This document shows, in pieces, positions 582-63,638 of a stretch of DNA of 64,000 bases. The position numbers and the translations under genes were made by a program. The notes under the pieces were generated by a model, which was not told the DNA's origin, did not search any database, and saw only the letters and a program-made list of their open reading frames with translations. How positions within the stretch are numbered: the first letter of the stretch is position 1; every line of letters begins with the position of its first letter. The DNA comes from Podocnemis expansa (Eukaryota > Chordata > Testudines > Podocnemididae): NCBI GenBank assembly GCA_007922195.1, contig ML682038.1, positions 625,208 to 689,207 on the forward strand, written 5' to 3'.

Positions 582-1129
582 GGCTGTGCCTACACTTAAG
601 AAGTTAGTTCAAATTAATTTAGTCTAAATTAATTAATTTGAACTAATAATGGTTAATTTGAGCTAAGTTAATTTGAACTAACATGACCCCACCAGAAACC
701 CAAATCAAACTAGCATGTCCATGGACAGGACTTGCTAGTTCAATTTAGGAAGAGGGTGCCATGGGAAGTGTGGCAACATTGCACCCAAGAAGGGCCATGC
801 CCCCACCCAATACATGGAAAGGGGAAGGCACCCTGGGGTAAAGAAGGTCAAACCATGTTAATTCAAACTAATGCTTAGTTCAAATTTACATGGTTCCACT
901 GGGTTCATTCAAACTAAGAAGTTTGAATTAAACATTACTTCAAACTAAGAAGTTCGAATTAACTGTTACTTTGAAGTTAAGCAAGGTTTTATAACTTCAA
1001 AGTAAGCGTTCATTACTTTGAACTAAGGAGTTCCTTGGTTTGAAGTAATGATAGCCAATGTAGCCAGGCATAATTGAGTTCAAATTAATCTTCATTAAGT
1101 CGAACTAAATTGTAAGTGTAGACACAACC
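582..1129. mobile_element. MITE, AGTTCAAATTAA-type arms with GC-rich core
   Basis: Terminal inverted repeats read GGCTGTGCCTACAC at the left and GTGTAGACACAACC at the right. The element is flanked by a perfect 3-bp duplication, CAA (579-581 and 1130-1132). The arms are built from many copies of motifs such as agttcaaattaa and ttcgaattaa. The centre (about 740-860) is GC-rich and shares phrases such as gtgtggcaacat with the cores at 4841-5638 and 25801-26780. There is no coding capacity. The 3-bp duplication and GG-starting ends resemble PIF/Harbinger-like non-autonomous elements, but the superfamily is inferred. Confidence 0.85.
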
Positions 1130-2242: not shown

Positions 2243-2710
2243 GGGTATATCTACACTTAGAAGTTATTTAAAAATAAAGAGGTTTATTTCAAAATAACTT
2301 CTTTCCTGTTCATTCATGCGTTTTGTTGTTTTGAATTAAACATTTATTTTCAAACAGCAAAGCACTATTTCAAAATAATAAAACCTGCTTTTATTTCAAA
2401 ATAGTGCTTAAATCAAAATTATTATTTTGAAATAAGCCATTCTAAGCCACAGTATAGGCTTATTTCAAAATAATGGCCCTATTCTTTTGCCTGCCTTCCC
2501 CTCTTTCGAATTAGAGAGTAAAAATGAAGACTCGCTATTTTGAAATAATAACTCCTACCTTATTTTGAGTTAGAGAGTCTTCACTGGACTCCTAATTCAA
2601 AATAATAAATTCCAAGTAGTGCTAATTTGAAATAATTACTTCAAATTAAAATCAAAGTAGTTATTTCAAAATAACTATTTCAAATTAATGTTGTAGGTGT
2701 AGATATAGCC
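2243..2710. mobile_element. MITE, TTATTTCAAAATAA-type arms
   Basis: The left end reads GGGTATATCTACACTT and the right end GTGTAGATATAGCC. A 3-bp AAT duplication flanks it (2240-2242 and 2711-2713). The interior alternates motif copies (ttatttcaaaataa and variants) with unique spacers, for example cttttgcctgcc and agagagtcttcactggact. The same spacers occur in the same order in the copy at 15699-16169, where the motif is different. It is non-coding. Confidence 0.85.
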
Positions 2711-13500: not shown

Positions 13501-13800
13501 TATTCTATTGTAATGATTAAGGAATTAATGAGTTTTCAGGAGAAATCTAAATGAGTAGAAAGGCTTCTCCTCTAAATAGGCCTCCTTTGTTGAAAAGAGA
13601 CTGTATTTGCTTAGCCTTGTTTTCATTTCTAATTAAATAGAAAGTAACTCTAATCACATGAGTAGCCAATGTATATAACCAGAGTATAAATATTTTATAC
13701 AGTTTCTTGAAGAGGTAAATAAAGAAAAAAATGGTCTATCCTGTGAAATTTCAAGAAATTAAGAACAATGAAAAGGCAAAGATAAAGAGACTTCAGAATT
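10501..13800. other. AT-rich region without recognised repeats or genes
   Basis: No known repeat signature is seen over 3.3 kb. The longest open frame is 154 codons at 10623-11087 on the plus strand. I do not recognise the product, it has no evident domain, and its composition looks like translated AT-rich DNA. A small direct repeat (acaggaaacagcacaggaaacag) lies near 11581. Confidence 0.5.
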
Positions 13801-14640: not shown

Positions 14641-15698
14641 GGGGTATACAGAAAATGACTATGCATTTGCCCTTTAAGTCTAACCTCTTTTATTATAAGA
14701 TTGATAAGTCCTTACACTCACTAAGACCCTAGTATAGCTCTCCACTTTCTAGGCCATTATACTGCAGCCCCAAAGAGGAAAAGCCATCGTACGTGTATAA
14801 GCCAAGGCCTCCTGCCAACCTTTCTATCACCAATATCCATATGAGCCACCCTACCAATGCCAGATGGTAGATGGTACAAACACTATGTAGCCTCTTTCAC
14901 CCCAACAACACCCACTGACCAGGGATTATTTTTGATAGGAGCCTTGAGAACTGTGTACCATTCTTGATGACACCTGCCAGTATCTCCTGAACTATTGGTG
15001 GCCACTTCTAGTACTTTTCCCACAACTGAAGGACAATAACAATAGACCAGAGGTTATTGGAAATCACCTGTTCTGGACACACTATTGAATTTTGGGCTCC
15101 TCTTCAAGGATGGAGTTCATGGTGGACTCCCTCTTCCAACAAAGTGCTATGGTGTGAGTGCCACCTCAACATCAAGGAAAAGGATTCTACTCACAATATT
15201 TCATAGTCCACAAGCACAGGGATGATGGACACCTATTCTTTACTTAGGTCAGCTGTATATTTTTATTCACAGAACAAAATTCCACATGGTTATGTTGATA
15301 TAGATAATCCACTCCCTGGAGAAGTCTATATGATTTTTCAGCTCTCAACATCAAAGCTGATTATTTTCATGCTGACATTCACCCATCCCAAAGAATTTTC
15401 CTTAGGTTTCTGGTAGAACAAGAGAACTACCAATTCAGAGTACCTTTGTTTGGGCTGGCAATGGCATCCAGGATCTTCATGAAGGTCTTCCCAGTGGTGG
15501 CAGCTCAAATGAGGCAAAGCTACTACACTGTCTTCTCGTACCTGGATGATTGGCTCCTAACAGGAAAATGCAACTGGAAAGTTCAATCAGCTATCTTACT
15601 TTTGCTCCACCATTCACGTGAGTTGGCTTTAACAGGAAAAAGTCTACTTTGACTTCCACAAATACCATAAACTTTGTAGGAATGACCCTAGATTCTAT

Positions 15699-16169
15699 GG
15701 TTATGTCTTTACTTAGAAGTTATTTTAAATTAAGGAGGCGTAATTTGAAATCACTTATTCCCTGACCAAGGAGGCATTTTCTTATATTGAATTAAGCAGT
15801 TTCTTAATTCAAAATAAGGAACTGCTAATTCAACATAATAAAACCTCCTTTTTCTTTGAATTACCGCTTACTCTGAAGTTATTAGTTCAAAGTAAGTCAT
15901 TTTAAGCTGCGGAATAGGCTTAATTCAAAGTAATTTCCCTACTCTTTTGCCTGCTTTCCTCTATTCCAAATTAGAGAGTCTAGTGAAGACTCTCTACTTT
16001 GAATTAATAATGCCCACTTCATTTTGAATTAGAGAGTCTTCACTGGACTCCTGATTCAAAATAATAACTTCAAAGTAGTGCTAATTCAAAATAACAACTT
16101 TTATTTAAATTCAAAGGAGTTATTTTGAATTAACTACTTCAAATTACTTTTGTAAGTATAGATATAGCC
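15699..16169. mobile_element. MITE, AATTCAAAGTAA-type arms
   Basis: The left end GGTTATGTCTTTAC and right end GTATAGATATAGCC are inverted copies with a TAT duplication (15696-15698 and 16170-16172). Its spacers (cttttgcctgct, agagagtcttcactggact) match those at 2243-2710 in order and distance, yet the motifs between them differ. It lies in the DIRS polymerase directly next to a second MITE. Confidence 0.86.
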
Positions 16170-16172
16170 TAT

Positions 16173-16559
16173 GGTGCATCTACACTGGCAAGTTAGTTTG
16201 AACTAAGGAGCCTTAATGTGAACTAACTTAGTCCCTGTCCACCACAGACTTTCACTAGTTCAAATTAAGGAATTTCTTAATTTGAAATAATGAAAGCTTA
16301 GTTTGAATTAGTAACACCTGCATTTAGTTCAAACTAAGGGCAATGTAGACCAGGATTAAGCCTTAATTTGAACTAAATAAATTCAAATTAGGGCAGTTAG
16401 TTCAAATTAACAAAGTGCACCAATTCAATTTAACATTTAAGTTGAATTAGTGCACTTTGTTAATTCAACTTACTAAGGTCTGGTTTAGTTCAAATTACGG
16501 TCAAATTTATTAGTTTGACTTTGTTAATTTGAACTAATTTCGGTAGTGTAGACATAGCC
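16173..16559. mobile_element. MITE, AGTTCAAATTAA-type arms
   Basis: The left end GGTGCATCTACACTGG and right end GTGTAGACATAGCC are inverted copies. The TAT at 16170-16172 is shared with the neighbouring MITE and repeated at 16560-16562. The interior has about fifteen variants of agttcaaattaa and its complement and almost no unique sequence. It is non-coding. Confidence 0.86.
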
Positions 16560-16584
16560 TATCTTAGCAAAGACCTTCCTCCCT

Positions 16585-25800: not shown

Positions 25801-26780
25801 GGGTATGTCCACTCGTCTTTTTTTATTTTGAAATAACACTGGTTATTTCGAAATAAAAAAGAGTAAGTCCACGCAACGTTTTTTTATTTTGAAACGATGA
25901 GCTCCATCATTTTGAAATAAGAGGCATCCTTTCAGAGCACCTTAAATCTGTTTGCTTTCAAAATGACTGTTGTTTCAAAACGGTTGTTTAGAAATAATGC
26001 CATTTGGACACATTATTTTGAAATAACTGGCATTTTGAAACAACGTGTTGGACCTTCCTCCCAGGGTGCTATGGGCCACCCCCCCTCAGCACCCTGGCCA
26101 GGGTACTGAGGAGAGATGCAGGGGTGGGGTAGCTGCAGCCCCGCGGCTCACCCTGCGCCCAGCTCTGGGGGCTGCAGCCCCTGTGGGGTGGCCACAGCTG
26201 TGACAGCTCACCCCGCCACCNNNNNNNNNNNNNNNNNNNNNNNNNNNNNNNNNNNNNNNNNNNNNNNNNNNNNNNNNNNNNNNNNNNNNNNNNNNNNNNN
26301 NNNNNNNNNNNNNNNNNNNNGGGGCTCAGAGCTGGTGGCGGGGTGAGCTGCTGTGGCTGTGGCCACCGCACGGGGGCTGCAGCCCCCAGAGCTGGGCGCA
26401 GGGTGAGCCGCGGGGCTCCCCGCCGCTGCAGCTGCAGCTGCTCAGCCCAGGGGCCTGGTGTGGGACCTAGGGCAAGGAGATCCCTCTCCTGGGGGCTGTT
26501 TTCCCCTGCCTGGCTCTCCAGCGGAGAGCCAGGCAGGGGATTGGGTGGCAACATGGCCCGCCAAGGGCCATGTTGCCACACCTCCCAGGGTGCCCCTCTC
26601 CAGCAATCGAAATAACATGTCCATATGCAGGGAATGCTATTGTGATTGGACGGGCTTTACTTATTTCGAATTAATTTTTTTTAATTTGAAATAAGTCATT
26701 TCGATTTAAGGGTTTTATTTTGAAATAAGTCATTTTGAAATGACTTATTTCAAAATAAAACTTTGTGTGTGAACATAGCC
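25801..26780. mobile_element. MITE, TTTCGAAATAA-type arms, GC-rich core with gap
   Basis: The left end GGGTATGTCCACTCG and right end GTGTGAACATAGCC are inverted, flanked by a TAG duplication (25798-25800 and 26781-26783). The AT-rich arms hold ttattttgaaataa motifs. The core is a GC-rich palindrome: 26131-26220 pairs with 26331-26440. A run of 100 N at 26221-26320 occupies the centre. The size of the missing part is unknown. Confidence 0.88.
26221..26320. other. Assembly gap (100 N)
   Basis: Exactly 100 N, a common placeholder for unknown length, at the apex of a GC-rich inverted repeat. Confidence 0.99.
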
Positions 26781-37139: not shown

Positions 37140-37955
37140 ACAGTACCTCAGAGGGAAGGGAGTATTTTTATTTTCATTTTAGGCATGGGGCAAATAAGAC
37201 ATAGGCCATATCTATCCTAGAAAATTGTTCCACAATAAGCTTTTGTCCTATTATAAGTGCATTGTATTTATAGTGCAGTTATGCATTTACACTGCACACT
37301 GTATAACGCAAATGAATGTGCAACTGTTCTTTAGATTTCCACAAGAAAGTGCATTGAATTGTGGGCATCTATCCCACTATAACACACATCAGCTTCCAAT
37401 GCTAGGGACCCTGGATAGAAGAGAAGTACTGAGCACTGTGGGTAAATTTACAAGTTCCCCTGGGATGCTGTGTTTCCATGTCATCATTCACTATAGCTGC
37501 TAGCAAAACTCATGTCCTTTTCAGTGTTATACCAAGAAGAAAATCAAAAGTTCTTCTGACTCACAAGAGGGAGGGCCTAATCATGTTAGAGCAGCAGAGT
37601 CCAAGCGGAAGACCACAGCTTGGAATTCTGGGACATTTCCAGAGGACACTTACTGTGGAAGAAAACTCCTTCAGCCTTCACACATACCTTGTAGCACAAG
37701 AGCTGTTCCACAATAGGTGTTTGACTCTTGCACAGGTGGTATTATTGTTCTAGTGTAACAGGGCACTTGTAAAGCAACAAGGAACATTCAGGTATGTACA
37801 GTGGGCTTGTTTTTCCACTATTAGAGGGTTTATTCTACAATAACTCTCCAGTGTGTACACAGCCTTAGAGCAGTTAAGAGATGTGGTAGAGCTTGGAATC
37901 AAACCTAGTCATCTGAGTCCCAATATAGTACGCTTACTACCAAACTATCCTTCTT
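37140..37955 (-). mobile_element. MIR-like SINE, antisense, split by MITE
   Basis: 37140-37203 resembles the complement of the MIR 3' half (cattttaggcatggggcaaa) and 37865-37955 the complement of the 5' half (ggtagagcttggaatcaaac, gtcatctgagtccc). The two parts are in the right order with the MITE between them. The divergence is high, as expected for this old amniote family. Confidence 0.6.
37204..37864. mobile_element. MITE, poorly motif-structured
   Basis: The left end GGCCATATCTATCC and right end GTGTGTACACAGCC are inverted copies of the common terminus. The flanks ATA and TTA match at two of three bases. The interior shows gttccacaataag and related phrases on both arms (cacaataagc at 37233, ctacaataactc at 37835) and a middle of unknown nature. 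Confidence 0.65.
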
Positions 37956-42010: not shown

Positions 42011-42310
42011 TACTATGTCTAAACTGGAGCCTTAAGTCGACTCAAGAAGCTTAAGTCAACTTAAGCTACTCCATAGCCACATTTGGAGTTCCTTAAGTCA
42101 ACTTAAGCACTTACTTAAGTCAACTTAATAACTCTCACTATTAAAGTCAACTTTAAGGGTTAAGTCGACATTATTAAGCTAGCTTAACAAAATGTGGCCA
42201 ATAAAATCGACTTAATAAAGTCAACTTAAAGGCAGGATAGCCATTTAAGTTGACTTTATAAAGTCGACTTAAACAAATGGGGACTCTCTAAGTCGACTTA
42301 ATAAAATCTT
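42011..42310. mobile_element. MITE, TTAAGTCGACTTAA-type arms
   Basis: The left end tactatgtctaaactgg matches the usual terminus. The interior is a chain of ttaagtcgacttaa, ttaagtcaacttaa and aaagtcaactttaa motifs. No right terminus is found; the copy stops near 42310. Confidence 0.75.
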
Positions 42311-49952: not shown

Positions 49953-50273
49953 GGCCATGTCTACAATACAGGGCTCAAGTAAGTTGACTTAATAAGGTCG
50001 ACTTAAAGTCAACTTAGTGAGGCCCCATTTGTTTAAGCAACTCTATAAAGTCTACTTAAGTGGCTCTAATGCACTAAGTCAAGTTTATTAAGTTGACTTT
50101 AATGGGTACATTGTGTTAAGTTGGACTAATAAAGTCGACTTAATCCTTAAAGTTGACTTTAAGGGCAGGAGTTATTAAGTCGACTTAAGCAAGTGCTTAA
50201 GTCGACTTAATGAACTCCAGATGTGGCCAGGGAGTTGCTTAAGTTGACTTAGGCCTCCAGTGTAGACATAGCC
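49953..50273. mobile_element. MITE, TTAAGTCGACTTAA-type arms
   Basis: The left end GGCCATGTCTACAAT and right end GTGTAGACATAGCC are inverted. The flanks TTT and TAT match at two of three. The interior is made of aagttgactt, aagtcgactt and aaagtcaactt motifs. It is the full-length counterpart of 42011-42310. Confidence 0.85.
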
Positions 50274-55542: not shown

Positions 55543-56843
55543 GGGTACGTCTACACTTACAATTTAGTTTGAATTAAGGAGGCTTAATTCAAACTAATTT
55601 AGTGCATGTCCACGCTAGCTTTCATTAGTTTGAAATAAGGATTTCCTTAGTTTGAACTAAGGAAAGCCTAGTTTGAACATATAAAACCTCCCTTAAGTTC
55701 AAACTAAGTGTTAGTTCGAACTCATTAGATTGAACTAAACCAATGGAGATGCATTAATTCGAACTAACCATTAGTTCAAATTAAGGTTCTTTGACCTTCC
55801 TCCCAGGGTGCTTGGCACCCTGGAAAGAAGAGCCTGCCAGCCACTGCCTGGGGCAAGTAGCCCCAAAGACGTCCCCCCCACCCCACCAATCTGGCTGGGC
55901 AATGGGGCCCCAGTCCCCTGGCCAGGCAGGGGTTAGGGACTCGTGCACCTGGTTCTACAGAGCTGGCTGGGTGTAAGCAGAGACCCCTGCACCCATCTCC
56001 ACCTGTGCTGGCCGGGAATGGGGAAGGGACCCCCATGCCCAGCTGGAGCTGCACTGCCCAGGCGTGGGGAACATACTCTGTGCCCATCTGGAGCTGCACT
56101 GCATGGGCACCTGGCTTCAGCCCCACTGCTGGGGTGGAGGAGAGGGACCCCCACCACCAGCTCTGGGCTTTCTTGCCGGGACCAGCAGTGGGGCTGGAGC
56201 CGGGCATGGGACTGTGTTCCTGGTGCCCAGAAAAAAAGCCTGGAGCTGGTGGCAGGGCTTCCTCTCTCCCCGGCAGAAGGGTTGGAGCAGGGCACAGGGC
56301 TGTGTTCCCTGCACCTAGCCAGTGCAGCTCCAGCCACTTGCAGGGGTCCCCCTCCGCAATCCAGCCAGTGCAGCTGTAGCCAGGTGGGGGGAATCCCTTC
56401 TGCCTCCTCCCGGCCAGCGCTGTCTGAGTTGGGTGGGCGTGCCCTGGCCCCATAGAGCTCAGCCAGTGGAAAACATCCCCTGCCAGGCTCTAGTCTTCAG
56501 AGCCCAGTGTGGGGAAAACCATCCCCTTCCCAGCTCTAGCAACACTACAGCTAGAGCTCAGTGGGGATGCTTTTCCCTGTGCTGGGCTCAAAGGGCTGGA
56601 GCTAGGCAGGCGATTGGGTGGGGGCATGGCCCTCCTGGGTGGTGATGCTGCCACACCTCCCATAGTGCCCTTCTTCCAATTCGAACTAGCAAGTCCTGCC
56701 CATGGACGTGCTAGTTCAAATTGGTTTTCCTAGTGGGGTCATGTTAGTTTGAGTTAACTGAATTTGAACTAACAATTATTAGCTCAATTTCATTAGTTCG
56801 AACTGAGTTAATTCAAACTAACCTTATAAGTGTGGACATAGTA
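55543..56843. mobile_element. MITE, AGTTCGAACTAA-type arms with long GC-rich core
   Basis: The left end GGGTACGTCTACAC and the complement of the right end (tactatgtccacac) are inverted. The flanks TAC and TAT match at two of three. The arms consist of agtttgaactaa and ttagttcgaactaa motifs. The 0.9-kb GC-rich core begins ctttgaccttcctcccaggg and ends with ccacacctcccatagtgcc, as in the cores of 4841-5638 and 25801-26780. The 225-codon minus-strand frame in it is not recognisable and is probably composition-driven. Confidence 0.87.
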
Positions 56844-63531: not shown

Positions 63532-63638
63532 GGGATATGTCTACACTGCAATTAAACACCTGCAACCTGGGCAGTGTCAGCTAGCTTGGGCTTTCAGGGA
63601 TCAGGCAAAGGGTTTTTAACTGCAGTGTAGACATACTC
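63532..63638. mobile_element. Short MITE, 107 bp
   Basis: The left end GGGATATGTCTACACTGC and right end GCAGTGTAGACATACTC are near-perfect inverted repeats, extended by aattaaacacc and gggtttttaac. The AAG duplication is perfect (63529-63531 and 63639-63641). It has no TCGA-type arm motif. Confidence 0.88.

Follow-up and report, generated by a model that had tools for sequence, protein, structure and literature searches.

Differences at the base flanking a TTCGAA core between two PIF/Harbinger-like MITE families of Podocnemis expansa

Two elements and their families

Two elements in the window, the whole stretch of 64,000 nucleotides that was analysed, raise the question of how a repeated unit can come to differ between copies of one element body. 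The preliminary description had read the two copies as sharing their termini and the same spacer phrases in the same order, and this was borne out: the elements are homologous, with homologous termini and collinear spacers, at the positions given here together with their relatives in the window.

15699..16169, + strand, family B element (the feature under study), 471 bp, 3-bp flanks TAT/TAT
2243..2710, + strand, family A element, 3-bp flanks AAT/AAT
16172..16559, + strand, second element immediately after B, most flank letters in the a-c and g-c classes, TAT on both sides
582..1129, + strand, relative with mainly a-c class units
25801..26780, + strand, longer relative with 13 units, 11 in the t-a class
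55543..56843, + strand, longer relative, 5' body common with B, a-c and g-c class units

Both copies are full-length and non-autonomous, with ends of the GGC..GCC type, outside which a perfect 3-bp target duplication was found in 39 of 77 scorable family copies. The duplications were A/T-rich, with 22 different triplets among the 39 (aat 6, ata 5, tat 4, tta once), and the TWA duplication of PIF/Harbinger elements in the narrow sense did not characterise these 39. The families are placed at the level of the PHIS superfamily. The elements are short (471 bp), occur in many copies, have inverted termini, share these termini with an autonomous element (loci L108 and L109, described below) and carry 3-bp target duplications, as is usual for MITEs. 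The best explanation of A and B is that they are sister families of non-autonomous PIF/Harbinger-like elements (MITEs), each a chain of hairpins built on the unit TTANTTCGAANTAA.

The genome (2.39 Gb, 1487 contigs) was searched with each copy, giving 3085 and 4043 first-look candidates for the two queries, and the best 40 copies were scored per query. The two best-40 lists had zero overlap, and 80/80 scored copies were clearly A (37–45 of 45 diagnostic columns) or B (35–44 of 45); since similarity to the two queries decided which copies entered the lists, they are unable to show intermediates. Loci L052 and L053 were identical, on contigs C50 and C49, and are probably one locus assembled twice; after leaving L053 out of the resident-copy mutation counts and the label-agreement test, the flank-base label equalled the spacer label in 79/79 distinct copies. 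Mean identity was 86.3% inside each family versus 77.8% between A and B. Among the scored copies no linked subgroups of non-transition variants were found within the element, apart from one or two weak exceptions involving three copies; the linkages were among flanking columns.

Several observations on the neighbourhood were made alongside. B and the element at 16172–16559 form a head-to-tail pair (window 15690–16562) in which TAT precedes B, separates the two and follows the second, and the second is an insertion at the 3-bp duplication of B; another terminus directly beside the element was seen in 2/77 copies (L041, L056). Beside B, 15500–15690 reads by eye like a reverse-transcriptase relic, its YLDDWLL being what we take to be the reverse-transcriptase motif. 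Several relatives can be aligned with A and B over their 5' part; L091 was left out of the C alignment. A run of N occupies 26222–26320, within the longer relative of the t-a class. AAGTCGACTT-type units replace TTCGAA in relatives that keep the same terminus and start at 42011, lie at 49953–50273 and at 13730 (minus-strand count); such units also occur at the transposase locus L137. An element of about 105 bp at 63533–63638 has the same terminus at both ends without TTCGAA units, and 37204–37864 combines units resembling ttctacaataa with terminus-like ends (4 and 3 mismatches).

The base beside the core

The two window copies had been described as carrying different unit motifs; the alternation of ttcaaa and tttgaa was rejected as a signal, TTCAAA and TTTGAA being products of CpG decay from one TTCGAA core. 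Resident copies had changed from their founder at 48% (A) and 46% (B) of CpG columns and at 4.3% (A, 39 copies) and 4.5% (B, 40 copies) of other columns. The unit centre is CG in 19/19 units of both founders, even though decay has reached about half of the CpGs in resident copies, and 5/6 of A's CpGs outside units are common to B. Units of the form TANTT(CG/CA/TG)AANTA numbered 174 in 241.6 kb of window and flanks, against 0–3 for each of seven control cores.

The CpG-restored A and B founders differ at 45 positions: 16/38 flank bases, 5/114 core bases, 2/111 of the outer three bases and 22/207 spacer bases (flank against spacer, Fisher p 1.2e-5). The main change at founder level is thus a single base, N, on either side of the TTCGAA core, and the versions of the unit distinguished by it include TTTCGAAA, ATTCGAAA, GTTCGAAC and ATTCGAAT. 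Greater divergence of the units as a whole was rejected (23/263 unit columns against 22/207 spacer). Most of the A/B change lies in the 5' half (flank 12/18, spacer 17/119; 3' half, flank 4/20, spacer 5/88). Within 14 elements, comprising the two founders and 12 single relatives, two units of one element had the flank class in common at a frequency of 0.504, versus 0.219 after shuffling (maximum 0.267 of 2000).

A third family, I, was reached by pattern searches. The second pattern had 309 matches, and four copies among the 100 listed combined a B-like first flank letter with A-like spacer letters; of 11 loci sampled, four were I, L115 and L120 were B-like, L121 was A-like and L116–L119 were other relatives. 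A narrower pattern had 10 matches in the genome, nine being family I and one an A copy with a point change (L122), which was left out, the I consensus resting on the nine. An I-like first-hairpin pattern had 4 genome matches in all, two of them outside the I set.

Between A and I, 11/37 flank bases are different against 5/206 in the spacers (p 6.2e-7), with 5/112 in the core and 1/110 among the outer bases; the comparison is with a nine-copy consensus in which some copies are mosaic and were accepted partly by flank sites. Flank sites 225 and 232 had been set by the search pattern, as had spacer sites 237 and 238, and six flank sites had served to accept copies; without the four pattern-fixed sites the contrast was 10/35 flank versus 5/204 spacer (p 2.4e-6), and without pattern-fixed and acceptance sites 5/30 versus 5/204 (p 0.004). 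The first four I copies, chosen by pattern alone, differed from A at 11/38 flank and 4/202 spacer bases. The claim that the motif had changed and the spacers had not is thus nearly right for A against I and too strong for A against B, where 22/207 spacer bases differ between the founders; a spacer-preserving switch between A and B themselves was rejected on this count.

Since B, the outgroup, equals I at ten of the eleven A/I flank sites, ten changes are placed on A's branch, beside one or two in the spacers. Of these ten flank changes, nine produce a T preceding the core or an A following it, in the direction of TTTCGAAA (P 3.6e-4 with equal odds for every base; 2.6e-3 counting 7 of 8), and in seven units t-t or a-a became t-a, which is TTTCGAAA. 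A's branch thus leads from an I-like state toward TTTCGAAA at many units with almost no spacer change. Single I copies vary, L111, L123 and L125 being partly A-like and L114 B-like from one point onward; being intermediate, and several looking mosaic, they indicate a stepwise or recombinant change and not one event.

These copies bear on an origin of A and B as mosaics, in which a 3' half common by recombination was joined to 5' halves from different pre-existing families. The concentration of differences in the 5' half, a 5' body common to several families and I copies such as L114 would fit this. A and I, however, share their spacers over the whole length, yet their flank sites differ in both halves, and large-block exchange would have carried spacer letters along; we regard a mosaic origin as improbable. 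Ordinary subfamily divergence, in which founders drifted and the flank base was less constrained or more mutable, would accommodate the 22/207 spacer differences between A and B and the lack of a clear flank excess between B and I (flank 7/37, spacer 23/206, p 0.18). The flank base is not hot in resident copies, its mutation in 79 of them being 3.0% (A) and 4.6% (B), about the general rate, and a mutational hot spot was rejected; yet A and I differ at 30% of flank and 2% of spacer bases, and we hold drift of this kind to be very improbable.

Hairpins, paired arms and conversion

Both copies fold better than 100/100 shuffles (z −11.1 for B, −9.0 for A), as series of local hairpins, and the CpG-restored founders fold at −134.8 kcal/mol (A) and −156.0 kcal/mol (B). 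The hairpins referred to here are as follows.

15720..15754, + strand, first hairpin of B, founder flank letters T,T / A,A (genome-wide version TTAA)
2264..2298, + strand, first hairpin of A, founder flank letters T,A / T,A (version TATA), decayed in the window copy
2421..2474, + strand, hairpin of A, arms 2421–2438 and 2457–2474, 18 bp fully complementary
15879..15934, + strand, B hairpin homologous to A's 2421..2474
15976..16050, + strand, B spacer hairpin with the phrase agagagtcttcactggactc, arms of 24 nt, 92% complementary

In the A hairpin at 2421..2474 both flank pairs differ from B by compensatory changes. With flank letters masked, apposed flank pairs were complementary at 7/8 in A (p 0.02) and 5/8 in B (p 0.014). 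The first-hairpin pattern with free flank letters had 1339 exact genome matches and its reversed control none. Among the 100 matches listed of the 1339, flank letters were GTAC in 50, TATA (A) in 18 and TTAA (B) in 16, with other letters, in ones and twos, in the remaining 16; at least three versions of this piece are therefore common.

The main rival to the reading we prefer, given below, is that short tracts were converted, or templates switched, in the source lineage. A mismatch beside the common core would be rewritten while spacers stay, selection not being needed, and units would pair with each other, each with its own other half, or with TTTCGAAA-type elements. Much in the folds is in keeping with this. 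Both arm pairs were complementary in 84 of the 100 first hairpins listed, far above shuffles (outer pair 91/100 versus 48.8 expected, maximum 67 in 5000 shuffles; inner pair 93/100 versus 62.7 expected, maximum 78). Of the 170 pairs of the common fold, 160 were unchanged, seven had changed on both sides, six of them compensatory (Watson-Crick to Watson-Crick), and three on one side. The I copies are mosaic, and in seven of the ten changes on A's branch a t-t or a-a unit became self-palindromic, the outcome expected of conversion acting on single units, which counts against the selection reading. Template switching is also known to make and mend hairpin stems (PMC8794818).

Other results count against conversion. 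Undirected repair should yield ATTCGAAT as often as TTTCGAAA, yet 7/7 units became TTTCGAAA (0.008, or 0.03 with hairpin partners counted as one). Among 18 further rows of single relatives, several of them the same element on both strands, complementarity of flank pairs reached p ≤ 0.05 in only two, with L050, L052 and L059 at or below expectation. In the 79 resident copies, paired arms showed no co-mutation beyond chance at non-CpG sites (double changes 43 versus 46.0 expected in A, 36 versus 35.8 in B), while Watson-Crick-restoring double changes (A 28 versus 19.8 expected, sd 3.8; B 17 versus 17.1) were slightly above chance in A, and CpG-pair double changes were so slightly in A (190 versus 182.0, sd 6.6) and more in B (191 versus 171.8, sd 7.1), an excess that uneven decay among copies may explain. 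Conversion within a folded element, one of two causes first proposed, is thus not seen in resident copies at non-CpG sites and may have acted in the source lineage, to which the switch mainly belongs, given neither a flank hot spot nor a paired non-CpG excess in resident copies. As a full account we consider it rather unlikely. Complementarity of the hairpin arms appears to be a second, weaker constraint.

Helper elements and known systems

A PF13359 profile search for DDE_Tnp_4 transposases scored 150 matches of 8490 candidates, 150/150 over the cut-off, and 6/6 of the best loci sampled began with the terminus GGCTATGTYYACAC followed mostly by TTTCGAAA-type units. L108 is a 4.19-kb element with a transposase frame (DDE_Tnp_4) and an opposite-strand 362-aa Myb-like frame between the same termini (Myb/SANT, Myb_DNA-bind_4, E 5.9e-18), and L109 is a 2.6-kb element, likewise with a transposase frame and with a shorter Myb/SANT frame (181 aa, E 1.7e-16). 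Their termini are GGCTATGTCTACAC on the left and GTGTAGACATACCC on the right, the same as in the A and B founders save one base, and their 3-bp target duplications are ata (L108) and cta (L109). For a third transposase locus, L110, the right end was not found; some 2 kb behind its transposase there is a long frame on the minus strand, which includes a zinc-knuckle-like stretch of CX2C type and is perhaps a retroelement inserted in the Harbinger element.

Exact TTCGAA sites, all of them near the ends in L108 and L109, were TTTCGAAA at 14/15 in L108 and 11/12 in L109, compared with 8/17 in A, 0/16 in B and 1/15 in I, so that A's match to the helper motif is partial. L108 aligns with A (E 4e-7), and the listed rows of at least 50 bp include none that pairs it with B.

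A protein search with a transposase relic as query gave 8225 candidates, 150 of them listed, and ten with long frames were sampled upstream. Seven of these ten divergent loci had a terminus with ≤3 mismatches upstream, read at the left side only, so that terminus and gene may not belong to one element; in L128, L129 and L134 no terminus was found in the 601 bases taken. The units were g-c/a-c at L131, mainly a-t at L132, L133 and L135, a-a at L136 and AGTCGACT-type at L137, and L130 had the terminus without a scored unit. The L132 end matches the 55543 element and the L052 element (77–79% over 230–248 bp), and that of L136 matches L004 and L019 (81–82% over 105 bp) as well as B (E 1e-7) and A (E 4e-6) near the ends. 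L015 and L057 are transposase relics (37–43% to the L108 protein), in which no clear terminus with units was found. A link of transposase lineage to motif version is suggested by the sequence of these few loci.

We lean toward the explanation that source elements were selected, stepwise, to match the end motif of the helper. The helper's DNA-binding protein, probably the Myb-like one, would bind at the units, and base N would set which helper lineage reads them; successive source elements would have been selected, per unit or hairpin pair, to match the helper then active. TTCGAA would be under purifying selection as the helper site, a change of helper would bring a change at N, and the arms would need to pair, though less strictly; conversion in the source lineage may supply changes that selection keeps. 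Selection for a matched set of binding sites, the other cause first proposed, gains support from nine of ten A-branch changes leading toward the TTTCGAAA version of intact Harbinger ends and from the other versions seen at some divergent transposase loci, binding itself being inferred. The several flank classes found together in B argue against a single strict motif for each family. The statement that independent point mutation could not produce the switch was too strong, since point mutation with selection in successive sources fits and intermediates exist.

More tentatively, and with somewhat more doubt than belief, the flank base of TTCGAA could be a recognition code, each Harbinger lineage reading a version peculiar to it and MITE bodies rewriting their arrays, one unit after another, to suit the next helper. 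If so, MITE bodies would outlive their helpers, one chassis being amplified in turn by several. To our knowledge, it has not been settled why some MITEs outlive their transposon or by what route they come to use another helper. This one genome contains an intact helper, families of the old and the new version and an intermediate, which makes the helper-switch idea directly testable here.

MITEs, Harbinger helpers and subterminal motifs are already known; the literature search found no report of a founder chain with a kept body and a motif moving toward the helper version. Chompy, a crocodilian MITE, may be comparable as a foldback MITE of vertebrates; that search found no paper in which it is described as a MITE. 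The A and B elements resemble PIF/Harbinger elements of the PHIS superfamily (PMC4482050 and PMC9179366) in having the terminus of intact two-gene elements of this genome (DDE transposase and Myb/SANT, autonomous length 4.19 kb) and in their 3-bp duplications; they differ in that the duplications are A/T-rich but not TWA and in being short and mostly unit arrays. Tourist-like MITEs such as mPing are likewise short relatives sharing termini with a two-protein helper, but the A/B interior is a TTCGAA hairpin chain with a switching flank base, a feature not found in the available parts of PMC2836001. Hairpin evolution by template switching likewise accounts for multi-base, compensatory stem change; it is described for RNA genes in PMC8794818 and alone predicts no drift toward a helper motif. 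The Myb-like protein of PIF/Harbinger is the known DNA binder (PMC9710019 and PMC2836001), and that of zebrafish Harbinger3_DR recognises a 9-bp motif in the subterminal regions (PMC9710019). In the autonomous element described here a repeated motif likewise stands near both ends, a likeness of position.
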